64,000 nt of DNA, taken from contig NZ_CP036274.1 in the NCBI RefSeq assembly GCF_007747655.1, forward strand, positions 7,130,001 to 7,194,000. The letters are read 5' to 3'. The notes under the pieces were generated by a model. It did no database searches and had not been told where the DNA came from. It saw only the letters and a program-made list of their open reading frames with translations. The first letter of the stretch is position 1. The number at the start of each line of letters is the position of its first letter. This document shows positions 12,327 to 63,313 of the stretch, piece by piece. A program made the position numbers and the translations under genes. Source of the stretch: Anatilimnocola aggregata. GTDB taxonomy: Bacteria > Planctomycetota > Planctomycetia > Pirellulales > Pirellulaceae.

Positions 12327-13214
12327 ATGAGCAAATCCATCTATCAGATCGTCGACGACCTGCCCAAAATCAACATGACCGTCCGCATGCTGCATGCTCT
12401 CGATTGGGTTGTGCCTGGACAATGGCAGAACATCGTCGGCTTCGAGAATACGATCAAGGCTGTGACCGGCGAAACCGACCAAAAGCTCATTCAGAAGATC
12501 GGCGAGCGGGCGATCGCGCTCTACAACGACAAATCGCAAGGTTATCAGCGAGCCTTGTGGCTCTATCAAACCGTCGACTATGTGCAGGGGGTGGCCGGTT
12601 TCGGTGCCCTCCTTTCCAAATTGGGCGAGAGTTTCAGTTTCCTCTCGTTCCTCGATAAGCTCACACCCAAATCGGACACTACCCAGGCAGTCGACCTGGG
12701 ATTGAAGGTCGTTACGGAAATCGCCTGCTTCTGCCAGGTGAATGGCATTCCTGGCGATAGCGTTGGCGACTTCGTCGAATCGCTGGCCGACTACAAGCAC
12801 GAAGCCTTGATGCGAATGGCAGCAATGATTTGCGTCGACGGCCTGATTCCGCTCGGTCCCGACTTTCTCGACAAGGCCTTGGCATTGATCGACAAGACCG
12901 GGGCGTCTGGACTGGAAAGCAACAGCCGCTACAATCAAATCAAGGAGTACATCCCCGGCAAGAATACAGCCGAGCAAATCACCTTCATGCAAAAGGGACT
13001 ATCCTCGGTCAAGGATTGGTCGAAGTCGTTCGTCTCGTCGCATAACCTGGGAGTCGACAAGGTCGTGGCCAGCTTGCGCGGCACGTTGCCCGGCGTCGAG
13101 AGCCATTTGGACTATCTGGGCGCGTTCCTCGATATGAGCGTGAATTACTACGAACACACCGGCACGCAATCGATTGCCCGCAGTCTCATTTCGCGGGCTG
13201 CGGCAGAGATCTAA
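12327..13214 (+). CDS. Unknown, mostly helical protein
   Basis: 295 residues starting at MSKSIYQIVDDLPKINMTVR, with AGGA upstream of the ATG. There is no signal peptide. The sequence is predominantly helical with moderately hydrophobic stretches (for example YVQGVAGFGALLSKLGESFS around residues 86-105) that are too short or too polar to be clear membrane spans. I do not recognise a family. It may form an operon with the preceding lipoprotein gene. Coding potential is supported by length, codon use and the absence of a better frame on either strand. Confidence 0.65.
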   Translation: MSKSIYQIVDDLPKINMTVRMLHALDWVVPGQWQNIVGFENTIKAVTGETDQKLIQKIGERAIALYNDKSQGYQRALWLYQTVDYVQGVAGFGALLSKLGESFSFLSFLDKLTPKSDTTQAVDLGLKVVTEIACFCQVNGIPGDSVGDFVESLADYKHEALMRMAAMICVDGLIPLGPDFLDKALALIDKTGASGLESNSRYNQIKEYIPGKNTAEQITFMQKGLSSVKDWSKSFVSSHNLGVDKVVASLRGTLPGVESHLDYLGAFLDMSVNYYEHTGTQSIARSLISRAAAEI

Positions 13215-13606
13215 GCATCGAACCTAAACGTCCGGCAATTGATCTCGCTGGGTGATTGATCAACACCCCCCTTTTGCGGACATCACAGTTAACCCATTTC
13301 GCGGCAACGCTTTGCATCCAACTTTTCGAACTCGAAAACATCCTATCTGTTGAAAAACCCTCCCGGCACACCTCTGCCGCGATTCGTTTGTTGCCAGAAA
13401 AACCCACAAACGCTACACAGCCTGCACGCAGAACGTCCCGCGGGGCAGTGCACTATTCGTCCACCAGATTGCCAAAACATACGCTCTTATTTATCGCTAA
13501 GTAGTGACTATTTGTCAATAACATTCGCTGCAGATTTGCACTGCTTTTCCTGACCCGGTCCGAGTGAAACCACTCCGCCCGCTGCCAAAAAGTTCGTAGC
13601 AAGGAT
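13215..13606. other. 392-bp convergent intergenic region
   Basis: This separates two convergent genes. I see no coding frame of credible composition, no strong intrinsic terminator and no repeat. Local base composition is more AT-rich than the flanking genes, as expected for untranslated sequence. Confidence 0.4.
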
Positions 13607-15043
13607 TTAACCGGGATCGGCCGGGACTGCCGCGCCGATTCTCCCCTGCAGCGCAGTCAGCAGGTTCTGCATCACGCGGTCGTCCGGCTGAGCGGCAACA
13701 CAACTGGCGAGCAACTTTTCGGCCCGCTCTTGATCGCCGCGGACCAGATCGTGATAGACGAGCAAGAACCGCGCATCCATCGCTTCGCGATTGGCTTTCG
13801 CGAACTCCTCCAAATCGGCCGCTTGCTGCAAATAGACCTGCGGATCGTCGTAGAGCCTGGCAAGGGTTCCGGCATCCCAGCCCGGGCTGACGGCCAACAC
13901 CGAATAGAGCGCTGCTGCCGATTCCGAATAACGCCTGCGTGCAAACAGCACTAGCGAGCGGAACTCGTGCAAGTTGGGGTCGTTCGGCAGCAGCTGTATG
14001 GCTTCGTCGATCAGTTCGTTCGCCCGACCATACTCGCCCCGGCGGAACACCTCGCGAGCATCGTCAAACCGGCGAATCGCCCGCTCCGAGCGGACGAGCT
14101 CGTCCGACGACTCCTCGTAATTCGGCTCCGGCACGCGAATCGGCTGCGAGTAGTCATAGAGCACGGTGGTCGGCACCGCAGGTCGCACGTAATAGGGATT
14201 GCTGAAGGCGAAGTTCGTGGCGCTGAGCGTTATTCCACCGCTGGAATAACTGTAGTTGTAGTACGCGGGCCGGTAAGCGCCCGACCAGGTGGTCGGTTGC
14301 CAGTGATGGTGCAACTCGGGGTAATAAGCTCGCGGTGGGCGATAGCTGTTGCCCGCGTAGTTCCCCGGCCGGTTGAACGTGTTTTGATTGCCATAGTTTT
14401 TGTTGATGACGGTCGTATTCTTGTTGATCACCGTCTTGTTGACGGTGTTGTTGGTGACGTTGGTCACCGGTCGATTGACGATGGTCGTGTTGTTGTTCAC
14501 CGGCCGATTGATGACTGGCCGATTAACGTTGATGTTGGTGCTATTGTTCGGACGATTGATTGTGGGCCGATTGAAGTTAATATCGGGACGATTCACCACC
14601 ACGTCGGGACGATGATCGATCGGCCGGTTGAAGCCAGAACCATTGCTGCCCGGACGACTTCCCCCCGGACGATTAAATTCCGGGCGCGGGGTGACTGGTC
14701 GCTCATTGCCTGAGTTCCCAGGTCGATCGTTACTCGGTGGACGAAAGCTGCCAGGGAGGCGATTGCCGCTGCTGCTTGGCGGGCGCCCCGGAAGCATCGA
14801 AACGGTCGGCTTACGGCTAATTTCGCTGCTGCCACCTGGCCGGCCAAAACTGTTGCCGCCGGACTGCGGTCGGGCAGTGGGCCGCCCCGCAGAACTGAGT
14901 GAAGGACTGCCGACATTCGGCGTCGGCCGAGACGGCCTGCCGCTAGGCTGCTGCGGCTTTTTCGGGCCCTCGCGCGGCGGAACCGCCAGGGCAATCAGTG
15001 GCATGAGCAGCACGAAGCAAGCCCAGGAGATAGTCAGTTTCAT
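13607..15043 (-). CDS. Secreted Asn/Arg/Pro-rich repeat protein with C-terminal TPR-like domain
   Basis: 478 residues. The start at 15043 has AAGGAG at ideal spacing and gives a signal peptide (MKLTISWACFVLLMPLIALA). Residues from about 23 to 130 are a Gly/Arg/Pro/Ser-rich low-complexity tract. Then follows a striking Asn/Val/Arg/Pro repeat region built on NRP units (INRP, VNRP, NNNTTIVNRP) and a Tyr/Pro-rich stretch. The last 170 residues look like tetratricopeptide helices (AREVFRRGEYGRANELIDEA and a second LFARRRYSESAAALYSVLAV). It is likely an envelope or extracellular scaffold. It lies 13 bp downstream of the SnoaL-like gene, so the two are probably cotranscribed. Confidence 0.8.
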   Translation of the reverse strand: MKLTISWACFVLLMPLIALAVPPREGPKKPQQPSGRPSRPTPNVGSPSLSSAGRPTARPQSGGNSFGRPGGSSEISRKPTVSMLPGRPPSSSGNRLPGSFRPPSNDRPGNSGNERPVTPRPEFNRPGGSRPGSNGSGFNRPIDHRPDVVVNRPDINFNRPTINRPNNSTNINVNRPVINRPVNNNTTIVNRPVTNVTNNTVNKTVINKNTTVINKNYGNQNTFNRPGNYAGNSYRPPRAYYPELHHHWQPTTWSGAYRPAYYNYSYSSGGITLSATNFAFSNPYYVRPAVPTTVLYDYSQPIRVPEPNYEESSDELVRSERAIRRFDDAREVFRRGEYGRANELIDEAIQLLPNDPNLHEFRSLVLFARRRYSESAAALYSVLAVSPGWDAGTLARLYDDPQVYLQQAADLEEFAKANREAMDARFLLVYHDLVRGDQERAEKLLASCVAAQPDDRVMQNLLTALQGRIGAAVPADPG

Positions 15044-48997: not shown

Positions 48998-49995
48998 CAG
49001 AGCGTGAGCCACTTTACGATGCGCTGGGACGCGTGCATACCAGCTTGCGAATCAGCGTGACCGACCGCTGCAACATTCGCTGCTTCTATTGCATGCCCGA
49101 GGAGAACGTGCGCTTTCGCCCTCGCCACGAGTTGCTCACCTTCGAAGAAATTACGCGGCTCGCGCGGGTCATGGCTTCGCTGGGCGTCAACAAGTTGCGA
49201 CTCACCGGCGGTGAACCACTCGTGCGTGCTGAGTTGCCAAAGCTCGTCGCACAATTGGCAGCTGTGCCAGGCATCCACGAAATTGCCCTCACCACCAACG
49301 GCATTTTGCTGGCCGAGCAGGCTCAAGCACTGAAAGATGCCGGGCTGACACGGGTGAACATCAGTTTGGATGCGATGACCGAAGAGACTTTTCGCCGCAT
49401 CAGCCGGCGAGACGGTCTCGACCGGGTAATCGCCGGCATTCATGCTGCCAAGCATGTTGGCCTGGCACCGATTCGGCTCAATACGGTTGCGATCAAGGGA
49501 ATCACCGAGCCCGAGATTCCCGCGCTCGCCAGGTTCGCCCGCGACGAGCAGCTGGAACTGCGTTTTATTGAGTTCATGCCACTGGACGCCGATCAACAAT
49601 GGAATAACGACCAGGTGCTGACGGGCGAGGAGATACGGCGGCAGTTGGAAGCAGCGATTGGACCTTTGGAACCAGCGGATCGCCCCGATCTGAGCCAGCC
49701 GGCGATGGACTATCAGTATGCCGACGGTAACGGGCGGATTGGCTTCATTAATCCGGTCTCGCAGCCATTCTGCGGCGACTGCAATCGTCTGCGCGTAACT
49801 GCCGAGGGCCAACTGCGGAATTGTCTATTCTCGACAGTCGAATGGGATGCTCGGGCGCTACTCCGCGCGAGTGCCACCGACGACGAACTGGCTCAATTGA
49901 TTCGCGATTGTGTCCGCGCCAAGAAACCCGGCCACGGCATCGACTCCAGCGAGTTTATTCGCCCGCAGCGAGCCATGTATCAGATCGGCGGGTAG
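48994..49995 (+). CDS. moaA: GTP 3',8-cyclase MoaA (radical SAM)
   Basis: 333 residues. It makes the precursor of cyclic pyranopterin monophosphate from GTP with two [4Fe-4S] clusters. The radical SAM cluster ligands are C26, C30 and C33 (CNIRCFYC) and the C-terminal cluster lies in PFCGDCNRLRVTAEGQLRNC. GGEPLVRAEL and ITTNG-type blocks (LTTNGILL) are present. The protein ends in Gly-Gly, as needed for MoaA activity with MoaC. moaC is not in this window. It starts inside the moaE stop (ATGA). Confidence 0.97.
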   Translation: MTEREPLYDALGRVHTSLRISVTDRCNIRCFYCMPEENVRFRPRHELLTFEEITRLARVMASLGVNKLRLTGGEPLVRAELPKLVAQLAAVPGIHEIALTTNGILLAEQAQALKDAGLTRVNISLDAMTEETFRRISRRDGLDRVIAGIHAAKHVGLAPIRLNTVAIKGITEPEIPALARFARDEQLELRFIEFMPLDADQQWNNDQVLTGEEIRRQLEAAIGPLEPADRPDLSQPAMDYQYADGNGRIGFINPVSQPFCGDCNRLRVTAEGQLRNCLFSTVEWDARALLRASATDDELAQLIRDCVRAKKPGHGIDSSEFIRPQRAMYQIGG

Positions 49996-50005
49996 GGCAG
50001 ACCTT

Positions 50006-51163
50006 GTGACCGAGCCACGCATCTATCTCGATAACGCAGCCACTAGTTGGCCGAAGCCACCCGGCGTTTATCAGGCTGTCGATGACTACCAGCGCAACAA
50101 TGGCGCTGCTGCGGGGCGCGGCGTTCATCGCTCGGCACAAGCGGCCGAGCGGATTGTGTCGCAATGTCGCAAGCGAATTGCCGATCTGCTCGGTGCCCAA
50201 TCACCGGAGCAAATCGTCTTTACACTCAATGGCACCGATTCGCTCAATTTGGCTTTGCATGGTGTGCTCAAGACCGGCGATCATGTGGTCACCAGTGTAT
50301 GCGAACACAACAGTGGGCTGCGGCCACTCAGACATCTGGCCGATACCCAGGGAATAACCTTCGACACCGTCGGTTGCGACCGCGAAGGGTTCATCAACCC
50401 TGCTGAAGTGCGAAGCGCGATTCGTCCTCACACGCGTTTGATCGCGCTCACCCACGCGTCGAATGTGACTGGGGCAATTCAACCGCTGGCAGAAGTCGGT
50501 GAAATTGCGGCCGAGAAGCATGTACTGTTTTTGGTCGATGCTGCGCAGTCGCTCGGTCATTTTGGAGTGAGCGCGGGCAAACTCGGTTGCCACTTGTTGG
50601 CAGCCCCTGGACACAAAGGGCTGCTTGGTCCGCTGGGGACCGGGTTCCTCTATCTGGCTCCCGGCATGCAGGACGAGCTATCGGCCGTGCGCCAAGGCGG
50701 AACAGGTACTCGGAGCGACGACGACCATCAGCCCGAGTCGCTGCCCGACAAATACGAATCTGGCAATTTGAATGTCCCCGGCATCGCGGGCTTGAGCGCC
50801 GGACTCGCCTGGCTGACTGAAGCAGGGATCGACAAGATTGCAGGGCACGAGCGCGATCTCACACAACAGCTTTTGAGCCAGTTGAGCGAGCTTCCCCCCG
50901 TCACAATCTATGGTCCTCGCTCAGTTGAACGGCGCGTCGGCGTGGTCAGCTTCAATGTGGCTGGCTTTGATCCGCAAGAAGTGGCTGCTGGGCTCGACGC
51001 AGTGGCCGGCATCGAAGTGCGCTCCGGTCTGCATTGTGCGCCGCGCATGCATCAAGCACTGGGGACTTCTCCTGCTGGCACTGTCCGGGCGAGCATCGGG
51101 CCCTTCACAACTGGGGACGATATCGACTCCCTGGTGGCCGCCTTACGCGAGCTGTCTTCCTAG
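50006..51163 (+). CDS. Class V aminotransferase / cysteine desulfurase family protein
   Basis: 385 residues with a GTG start ten bases after moaA. The PLP-binding Lys is in APGHKGLLGPLGTG, with VDAAQSLGHFGVSAGKLG before it; the C-terminal RSGLHCAP holds the conserved Cys that carries persulfide in NifS-like enzymes. The N-terminus (YLDNAATSWPKPPGVYQAVD) is typical. Such enzymes release sulfur from cysteine. Its position behind moaD, moaE and moaA suggests that it supplies sulfur for MoaD thiocarboxylation, an inference. Confidence 0.9.
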   Translation: MTEPRIYLDNAATSWPKPPGVYQAVDDYQRNNGAAAGRGVHRSAQAAERIVSQCRKRIADLLGAQSPEQIVFTLNGTDSLNLALHGVLKTGDHVVTSVCEHNSGLRPLRHLADTQGITFDTVGCDREGFINPAEVRSAIRPHTRLIALTHASNVTGAIQPLAEVGEIAAEKHVLFLVDAAQSLGHFGVSAGKLGCHLLAAPGHKGLLGPLGTGFLYLAPGMQDELSAVRQGGTGTRSDDDHQPESLPDKYESGNLNVPGIAGLSAGLAWLTEAGIDKIAGHERDLTQQLLSQLSELPPVTIYGPRSVERRVGVVSFNVAGFDPQEVAAGLDAVAGIEVRSGLHCAPRMHQALGTSPAGTVRASIGPFTTGDDIDSLVAALRELSS

Positions 51164-51500
51164 CAACCATATCGGGGGGTGTCCAATTAAGGGTTTCTTA
51201 ATTGAACAGCAGTTAGCGCAACTCTCGGGTTTCCGAGCGATTGGTGTCCAATTAGGAGGGTCGTAGTTGAACACTTTGGTTGAACGTGCAAGGCTTGATT
51301 CTGCCGTGGCGAGTCGAGAACAGTGCAGTCATTGAGCGGTCAGACGGGCTGGTCCAAGTTGGTCCTCCTGAGCGAATAAGACTTTCTTGCTCTCATCACT
51401 GGCTACCGATACGATGAACGAGTTGAAAGGGCCAATTCCGGGGCTGATTGAATTCTTGCCAAGCTAACACCGCTGCCAGAGCGGTTGAAGGAGCACTGCC
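51164..51500. other. 337-bp intergenic region with two-hairpin repeat
   Basis: This separates the class V aminotransferase from a secreted TPR/coiled-coil protein. It holds the repeat at 51180-51273. The rest has no credible frame or strong hairpin; a promoter for the downstream gene is expected here. Confidence 0.5.
51180..51273 (-). repeat. Two-hairpin repeat element, copy A
   Basis: Read on the minus strand, a hairpin with arms TGTTCAA/TTGGACA (51267-51273 with 51245-51251) is followed by ACACCAA, a 31-base conserved core (51202-51232) and a 12-bp hairpin TGTTCAATTAAG/CTTAATTGGACA (51197-51208 with 51180-51191, 5-base loop). The T-G pair exists only on the minus strand; on the plus strand it is a C-A mismatch, which marks minus as the likely RNA strand. 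Copy B is at 62606-62702 in the opposite orientation. Confidence 0.8.
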
Positions 51501-62545: not shown

Positions 62546-62605
62546 GCAGGCACAAGCCACGCTCGCTCCTTCGCCGCGATTTCGCCACTTCAATATGCGC
62601 CTAAA

Positions 62606-62702
62606 CGTTCAATTATTAGTCGATAGTTGAACACCAACCCCCAGCCAAACCCGAGAGTTGCGCTATCTACTGTTCAACAATCAACCCGATTGTTGAACAC
62701 CC
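62606..62702 (+). repeat. Two-hairpin repeat element, copy B
   Basis: A hairpin with GTTCAA/TTGAAC (62607-62612 with 62627-62632, extendable by U-G and A-U pairs to an 11-bp stem with a 4-base loop) is followed by ACACCAA, the conserved 31-base core (62647-62677, 29 of 31 identical to copy A) and a perfect 12-bp hairpin TGTTCAACAATC/GATTGTTGAACA (62671-62682 with 62688-62699, 5-base loop), then ACACC. Compared with copy A, four pairs of the last stem changed on both sides and one T-G became T-A. Confidence 0.82.
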
Positions 62703-62814
62703 TCCTGCCTTGTAGTTGGCGCAAAGAGATATCTACAGAGAACTCGTGAGTGGCCGAAGTCAATCGAATCAGGCCACCATCCACGAATTCAATCTGTCTC
62801 TTTAGCAGCTTGCC

Positions 62815-63093
62815 CTAACGAGCATAGGCTGGAGTTCGCGAAGCGCGGAAGAAGCCGAATTTCTCGAGCGACTTGTAAACTTCGTCGAGCGTCTTCTCGC
62901 CAAAGTTGGCGATGCTCAGCAATTGGGCTGGCGTGCTGTTAAGCAGATCGCGAACAGTGAAGATGCCTCGTTCTTCCAGGCAGTTCGTCGTGCGAACCGA
63001 GAGGCCAATTTCGGCGGTGCTCATTTCCAGACGTTCTTTCATCTGGCGAGCGGTTTCTTCCTGACGGCTGAGCGGAATGCGGGTACGGCTCAT
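62815..63093 (-). CDS. Free-standing RNA polymerase alpha-CTD-like protein
   Basis: 92 residues from the ATG at 63093, which has GGAAGGGA at good spacing. The second half, IGLSVRTTNCLEERGIFTVR and DLLNSTPAQLLSIANFGEKT then LDEVYKSLEKFGF, is clearly the C-terminal domain of the RNA polymerase alpha subunit: two helix-hairpin-helix-type elements with an L-x-x-R-T-x-N-C-L start and the conserved FGEKTLDE (NxGKKSLxE in E. coli). The N-terminal assembly domain is absent. It may act as a small DNA-binding regulator. It stands alone with its own ribosome-binding site. Confidence 0.85.
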   Translation of the reverse strand: MSRTRIPLSRQEETARQMKERLEMSTAEIGLSVRTTNCLEERGIFTVRDLLNSTPAQLLSIANFGEKTLDEVYKSLEKFGFFRASRTPAYAR

Positions 63094-63313
63094 GACGGGA
63101 TTCCCTTCCAAAACAGGATCGAACTGAGCGGGACTTGGCCGAGTTCCCAGTCGTTGGGAAGTTATCGGCCGAGCGAAACTATAACGATTGCGCAACTAAT
63201 TTCAACTCGCTAGCATCCATTTTATCAAAAATGATTCATGACATGACAGCAGGCGGACGCTAGCAAGGCAAGGGAGCAACTCTCCCCTAAACGCTAACAT
63301 TTCAACCATCGAC

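Follow-up and report, generated by a model that had tools for sequence, protein, structure and literature searches.

Two related families of apparent miniature palindromic interspersed repeats in Anatilimnocola aggregata, one of them built on a two-hairpin unit

Introduction

Do two similar stretches of DNA, each with two hairpins around a common core and with stems that differ by compensatory changes, mark an isolated structured element, or are they members of something more widespread? The question is raised by a stretch of 64,000 nucleotides of the planctomycete Anatilimnocola aggregata (assembly GCF_007747655.1, contig NZ_CP036274.1, positions 7,130,001 to 7,194,000; hereafter the window), in which a sequence-only reading had noticed such a pair, had considered the double changes unlikely by chance and had taken them as a sign of selection on RNA or DNA structure. 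We present a computational follow-up of this locus covering the two copies, their relatives in the host genome and elsewhere, the covariation of their arms and the explanations that may account for them.

Results

Two copies in the window

Both copies carry the hairpin-core-hairpin layout at coordinates that were checked on the sequence (Table 1), and the details reported for them are upheld: the 31-base core has 29 identities between copies 1 and 2, and inspection of the last stem by eye shows that positions 8, 9, 11 and 12 and all four of their partners differ with pairing kept, one T-G pair being T-A in the other copy. The span 51180-51273 originally given for the element holds for its hairpins and falls short as its extent, being only the middle of a unit that reaches about 166 bp in fuller copies. 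The sense strand was defined as the strand with GGGGGTG ahead of the first hairpin (plus for copy 1, minus for copy 2), opposite to the strand quoted by the sequence-only reading, and the arms were named HA5, HA3, HB5 and HB3 from 5' to 3'.

On the plus strand, the best fold of copy 1 is one long hairpin, while its minus strand folds as two; copy 2 folds with two hairpins on both strands. Irrespective of strand, the window copies fold better than shuffled sequences (z -3.6 to -6.7). A third hairpin within the core, hinted at by the fold of copy 2, was rejected upon analysis of 93 copies (mean z -0.18 sense, -0.46 antisense). The genes neighbouring the copies are ordinary ones, namely an RNA polymerase alpha C-terminal domain protein (62815-63195, minus) and a class V aminotransferase (49910-51163, plus). 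No intrinsic terminator was found in 51100-51350, the region scanned around copy 1; Rfam at gathering scores returned only five tRNAs in the window, and two weak matches far below gathering score on six loci.

Table 1 Features of the two-hairpin repeat and of repeat X in the window
Feature	Position	Strand	Basis or sequence
Copy 1, whole covariance-model match	51172..51282	+	R1 111.3 bits, E 2.5e-28; among the 53 model-building copies
Copy 1, first hairpin (arms HA5, HA3)	51180..51208	+	TGTCCAATTAAGGGTTTCTTAATTGAACA
Copy 1, conserved core, with GCGYAACTCTCGGGTTT inside	51209..51244	+	alignment A2
Copy 1, second hairpin (arms HB5, HB3)	51245..51273	+	TGTCCAATTAGGAGGGTCGTAGTTGAACA
Copy 2, whole covariance-model match	62597..62707	-	R1 104.2 bits, E 2.9e-26; among the 53 model copies
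Copy 2, first hairpin (HA)	62671..62699	-	TGTTCAACAATCGGGTTGATTGTTGAACA
Copy 2, conserved core	62634..62670	-	read from the sequence
Copy 2, second hairpin (HB)	62606..62633	-	TGTTCAACTATCGACTAATAATTGAACG
Repeat X copy (GTTTTTCAACA..GCAAAAGGGGGGTGTTGATCAA)	13253..13358	-	R2 match 13252-13281, E 2.6e-5 for the window; aligned with 44 others

Family size and distribution

Searching the 9.0-Mb host genome with an 18-base core and up to three mismatches returned 61 places, against 14 for the reversed pattern, and the exact hairpin pattern GGTGTYCAA..TTGRACA gave 97 matches, some of them on both strands, against none when reversed. The 138 matches of the covariance model R1 were collated into at least 94 distinct places after removal of antisense duplicates and of four matches judged too short or too divergent (4165418, 6036893, 7858507 and 6394701), with the entry at 3671846 positioned from a separate analysis; this number is a lower bound because R1 scored 150 of the 2089 first-look candidates. 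R1 and the alignment A2 were built from 53 of 60 fetched copies, with L014, L034, L037, L041, L043, L054 and L060 excluded as truncated, divergent or chance, and the alignment A1 from 50 of the 60. Beyond the 94, about 31 more copies of the unit were recognized (16, 9 and 6, one of them weak), many with decayed or lost inner arms and several assigned by eye. The search for further copies, by which the sequence-only reading had proposed that it be judged, did not refute it: at least 94 places were found, and the stems of the 53 aligned copies pair more often than after shuffling. What had been read as a pair is a high-copy interspersed repeat.

Model searches covered relatives up to the same order. 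Across 59 other genomes R1 gave a single match, a divergent copy in the sister species, whose genome is the sole other member of the genus among those searched and in which a DNA search found no second copy. By eye, this copy has the same layout and the common tail GAACRAGTTGRTTGAAA, and its arm and core letters differ; none of its neighbours recurs beside any fetched copy except for a weak match of an ATPase-like protein (to L018; 33%, E 1.3e-7). The left-end model R2 matched in none of 39 other genomes, a 20-letter core pattern was found nowhere in one scan of genome contigs from which the host's own records may be missing, and no match was obtained in a phage collection or in a plasmid collection, one copy serving as query in each. 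Seven stretches of viral contigs contained a 17-letter pattern, the best R1 match among them having an E value of 0.044. Among the genomes searched, the repeat is nearly confined to A. aggregata, and it looks like a new repeat family rather than an isolated regulatory RNA.

Genomic context and age

As many as 92 of the 94 copies overlap no gene predicted by our own codon-based calls, compared with 11.9% of random placements in the window. The copies are scattered in both orientations with a spacing along the genome that fits random scatter, and where a neighbour was called on either side, as in 69 copies, the flanking genes take all four arrangements (L+R+ 25, L-R+ 18, L+R- 13, L-R- 13). No orientation bias along the chromosome was detected (permutation p 0.85 for 94 copies, 0.71 with 16 more, 0.98 for 32 copies of the repeat X described below) in a test run without a located origin or terminus, as GC skew of the fetched stretches gave no usable signal. 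Identity between copies reaches a maximum of 96.4%, with a median of 81% to the nearest neighbour, and the family is therefore old. Among the copies examined, neither recent movement nor an empty site was found. Copies L162 (7818342) and L186 (7499135) have the left flank in common too and therefore both seem to lie within a larger duplicated stretch.

Full unit and outer ends

Fuller copies measure about 166 bp and are bounded by the outer inverted repeats GACGTAAGTY/RACTTACGTC, the right one occurring also as RA(C/G)TTACGTC, with an interior of the order arm-arm-core-arm-arm. The arms are copies of a single motif (TGTYCAA.. or TGTTGATAAA..), whose orientation alternates from arm to arm about the conserved core. 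Within two mismatches, the left outer end was present in 11 of the 94 copies, the right one in 15 and both in seven (165-167 bp in total), against a chance background of 2.1% and 2.7% per end; a recognizable left end is missing from 83 copies and a right end from 79, so that inverted outer ends are confined to a small part of the set, for the most part divergent copies. The pair CGTAAGT..ACTTACG at a distance of 135-165 bp was found at eight places, seven of which are such elements and three of them new, against four places for the reversed-pattern control, and 15 of 21 hits of the left-end pattern had a partner end at 163-167 bp. No target duplication was evident by eye at the 166-bp ends. 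An outer closing stem in the main set was considered and rejected, the copies' own flanks pairing no better than swapped ones (permutation p 0.44, 57 of 60 fetched copies).

In L156, L159 and L161 the inner arms are gone and the outermost HA5 and HB3 still match (e.g. TGTTGATAAA/TTTATCAACA); the arms therefore behave like subterminal inverted repeats. Some variants were also observed. A longer subfamily of about 330 bp (L068, L070, L078, L079, L085, L090 and others) has extra common flanks and a possible inverted repeat end GGTAGTGGGCTGATTTGA, and was treated as a mosaic with another repeat because GGTAGTGGGCTGATTTGA is found elsewhere too; in L167, for instance, two inverted copies of it span 716 bp where no repeat is present. 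In a subset of copies (L036, L045, L122 and L125), TACTAACAA lies close to HB5 and an additional left end is located upstream at a distance of about 90-230 bp; in L036 that end belongs to a copy of repeat X (L232).

Repeat X

Besides the two-hairpin type, R2 matched GCAAAAGGGGGGTGTTGATAAA at many further places, and most of those fetched belong to a second repeat, designated X, with the 106-bp consensus GGTTTATCAACA-AANAGGATGATTTC ... GATGCACGCAAAAGGGGGG-TGTTGATAAACC, the ends GGTTTATCAACA/TGTTGATAAACC forming an inverted repeat that stops at about the 12th base. Of 45 aligned copies, 39 are of equal length and none overlaps a predicted gene; L213, an X copy by eye, failed the alignment pattern and is not among the 45. 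The copy in the window sits between a predicted plus-strand gene ending at 13214 and a predicted minus-strand gene with its 3' end near 13607. A direct repeat of at least 3 bases, as expected of a target-site duplication, was seen at the X ends in 0-2 of the 45 copies whichever offset was tried, a level similar to that of shuffled sequences. With at least 94 places found by R1, the roughly 31 additional units and the 45 of type X, the suspected two-copy RNA turns out to belong to a group of about 170 repeats within a single genome.

X carries both end modules of the two-hairpin repeat, GCAAAAGGGGGG-TGTTGATAAA and TTTATCAACA-AATAGGATGATTTC, in reversed order. The modules of the two-hairpin form face inward around the core, with GACGTAAGT/ACTTACGTC as outer ends; those of X face outward, and its middle resembles one of these outer ends (CGCAATTCG vs CGTAAGTCG, 7 of 9 letters), more closely so in individual copies, L209 and L251 among them. 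Sixty further left ends were fetched, and each was read with a partner end within about 0.17 kb (some by eye, L265 weakly), upstream in X and downstream in the two-hairpin type, the paired ends being too close together to enclose a transposase gene. No autonomous parent element was present among these 60. The examination covered all but a few of the R2 matches, which came from the 150 scored out of 1978 candidates, and a diverged parent could have escaped it.

Covariation of the arms

In the 53 aligned copies, 90.5% of stem cells hold a standard pair, against 83.4% after shuffling, and 107 cells are changed on both sides, against 51.2, neither value being reached in any of 500 shuffles; the two hairpins contribute 93.5% and 87.5% of standard pairs, respectively. 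The inner cross-helix HA3:HB5 around the core nevertheless attains 90.4% in A2, against 84.2% shuffled. Arm statistics were drawn from 93 of the 94 copies (one shorter than 108 nt was dropped), with HB arms set by a best-match rule and four copies with odd lengths (22, 32, 32 and 33) kept. At the four variable pairs of these copies, Watson-Crick pairing amounts to 78.0% in HA (44.9% shuffled) and 63.2% in HB (48.5%), and to 58.3% in the cross-pair HA5:HB3 (44.9%) and 64.5% in HB5:HA3 (45.6%); both hairpins and both cross-pairs exceed all 2000 shuffles, in tests uncorrected for the relatedness of the copies. Pair 4 fits in 73 of the 93 copies for HA5:HA3, 72 for HB5:HB3, 79 for HA5:HB3 and 66 for HB5:HA3, where 47-48 are expected. 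The view that covariation singles out the two-hairpin layout could thus not be sustained, given that all four arms vary together and that inner cross-pairing does about as well.

HA pairs with itself in 217 of 279 variable cells of the 93 copies. Wherever HA3 and HB3 are in conflict, HA5 fits HA3 in 102 cells, as opposed to 23 for HB3, and the first hairpin therefore has its own pairing, which is well supported. Its main arm types are paired in 96 of 111 and 63 of 78 cells, and the intermediate types CTT, ATA and CAA in 12 of 18, 8 of 12 and 5 of 9. Under the same conflict HB5 fits HA3 in 68 cells, as opposed to 57 for HB3, and in the 11 copies with an HB5 of type TTA this arm fits HA3 in 28 of 33 cells and its own partner HB3 in 3 of 33. 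The second hairpin keeps its outer approximately seven pairs, and its inner pairs are found in part of the copies only; as an own pairing, its inner part is not well supported. HA5 and HB5 are identical in 189 of 279 cells, where 1000 shuffles give a mean of 126 and a maximum of 166. Much of the remaining covariation can be accounted for by a single long hairpin or by a group of similar palindromic sites.

Discussion

Taken together, the observations are best explained by two related families of MITE/REP-like repeats, miniature, palindromic, interspersed and non-coding, which would have spread in this lineage and have since aged, a reading to which we assign a probability of about 0.72. The copies would have moved non-autonomously, with the arms and outer repeats as the putative sites at which a trans-acting transposase bound and cut; arms recognized as hairpins or cruciforms would have let copies with pairing arms keep moving, and the family may by now be mostly relic. 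This reading is favoured by the copy number and scatter, the intergenic placement and the fixed outer ends. Counting against it, no target duplication, autonomous copy, empty site or recent movement was found, and the core has remained conserved beside decaying flanks, as would not be required of a dead repeat.

The first thing to be weighed is whether the hairpins owe anything to coincidence. With the element at 94 or more places, paired changes recurring throughout the family and none of 2000 shuffles reaching the pairing of either hairpin, a chance pair has a negligible probability, in agreement with the sequence-only reading. The double changes may instead stem from mutation and not from selection. 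Palindrome arms may be copied onto one another through template switching or gene conversion, so that the two sides of a stem change together and the four arms of a copy become alike, and this would accommodate the coupling of all four arms at pair 4, the likeness of HA5 to HB5 and the TTA-type HB5 arms that fit HA3 instead of their own partner. It sits poorly with the preference of HA5 for HA3 over HB3 and with the intermediate HA types that are still paired, which lend weak support to stepwise change, and it explains the covariation and not the conserved core. Arm copying is accordingly held as a tentative alternative, the strongest of those considered here, and it can act together with the spread of miniature repeats. 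Since arm likeness is also obtainable by conversion or template switching, the selection on RNA or DNA structure suggested at the outset is likely rather than certain. The four coupled arms offer a test case of selection on structure versus arm-to-arm copying in bacterial palindromes, which bears on the reading of covariation as proof of RNA structure.

Two further explanations are improbable. The repeats could be moved by a host Y1 transposase (IS200/IS605-like, TnpA-REP), like REPs and TIR repeats. Y1 elements leave no target duplication, and none was found here. Seven Y1 loci were identified in the host genome at the Pfam threshold (L061-L067), each with inverted repeats of its own on either side (aligned over 24 to 113 bp) that differ between loci by eye, and the host therefore does keep such systems; in L063 there is additionally a 210-bp unit repeated in tandem, with 87% identity. 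REP dimers and Y1-linked TIR repeats are on record (PMC3733652). Against such movement, the core or arm pattern was absent from all seven loci within about 1.5 kb on either side, the loci matching the repeat set at best over 22 bp, located in a flank of a single copy (E 0.014), and the lagging-strand orientation bias it predicts was not detected among the 94 copies in the origin-free test given above. Slightly less probable still is a family of structured RNAs or mRNA-tail structures, in which the sense strand would be transcribed into two hairpins and an unpaired conserved core bound by protein or RNA. Stems that covary, folds better than shuffled ones and core letters far more conserved in the consensus than the loops are consistent with it, and so is an excess of G-T over A-C on the sense strand in stem pairs 1-9 (104 vs 40 cells, 46 vs 13 copies). 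That excess shrinks to 63 vs 32 cells (29 vs 17 copies, p 0.052) upon removal of the outermost pair, whose signal is mostly one HB change (34 vs 1) probably shared by descent, and to 24 vs 15 cells (20 vs 12 copies, p 0.11) at pair 4 alone, so that the strand preference of the covariation is no more than suggestive. The nearest genes lie in all four orientations, copy 1 has no terminator-like site in the region scanned, Rfam gave no match to the repeat at gathering score, and around a hundred copies in one species with nearly none in the relatives searched are unlike a conserved RNA.

It is doubtful, although conceivable from their common end modules, that the two-hairpin repeat and X are circularly permuted forms of one element. 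If true, this could indicate a circular intermediate that may be opened at two places, or an inside/outside use of ends, by an enzyme that would read hairpin DNA and leave no target duplication. A shared parent of the permuted forms would imply an unusual route of movement, one that is not known to be described for miniature elements.

Comparison with known systems

Typically, integron attC sites are imperfect hairpin DNA with the box pattern GTTRRRY/RYYYAAC. The motifs GTTGGAC/GTTGAAC with GTCCAAC seen here fit this pattern; they differ in that each box can pair with a neighbour a few bases away and that the copies are dispersed singly. MITEs, for which a target duplication is usual, resemble the present repeats in a size of about 0.1-0.17 kb, in having no gene seen inside, in being scattered between genes and in the terminal inverted repeats at a fixed distance in fuller copies, most of the 94 lacking recognizable ends. 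The repeats depart from MITEs in that no target duplication was seen and no parent found, in their four like arms and in the existence of two types with the same ends in opposite order.

The TIR repeats of TIRYT elements (PMC3733652) and the TnpA-Y1 class 3 elements (PMC6006769) are similar in forming inverted-repeat families or 'atypical secondary structures'; those flank a Y1 gene, whereas the repeat here flanks none of the seven in the host. Class 3 is stated there to occur principally in Planctomycetes, Acidobacteria and Proteobacteria (PMC6006769), and REP-family members are likewise reported in Planctomycetes (PMC3733652). The latter source further depicts REPs, BIMEs and REPINs as short, high-copy intergenic palindromes, often paired and in some families confined to a species, and REP dimers as able to fold apart or as one structure (PMC3733652), all of which is reminiscent of the present repeats. 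The unit here is however longer, 111-166 bp (106 bp in X) with hairpins of 27-29 nt each, against 20-40 bp for a REP, and it has a conserved core between two palindromes. REPs of the GTAG type have a linked RAYT/Y1 gene, whereas no linked Y1 gene was found here, and in place of the GTAG/CGTC tag at the hairpin foot, the A2 consensus has GGGGGTG or TTGGTG before and CAG or YTTAGG after the hairpins.

The supposition that no element of this layout has been described holds in the narrow sense, as no title or description found in searches of an open-access library matched just this layout or family, and fails in the wider one, REP dimers and MITEs being of the same kind. With neither the tag and Y1 linkage of REPs nor the target duplication of MITEs, the repeat is therefore assigned to neither named family proper, and it is filed with the small palindromic interspersed repeats.
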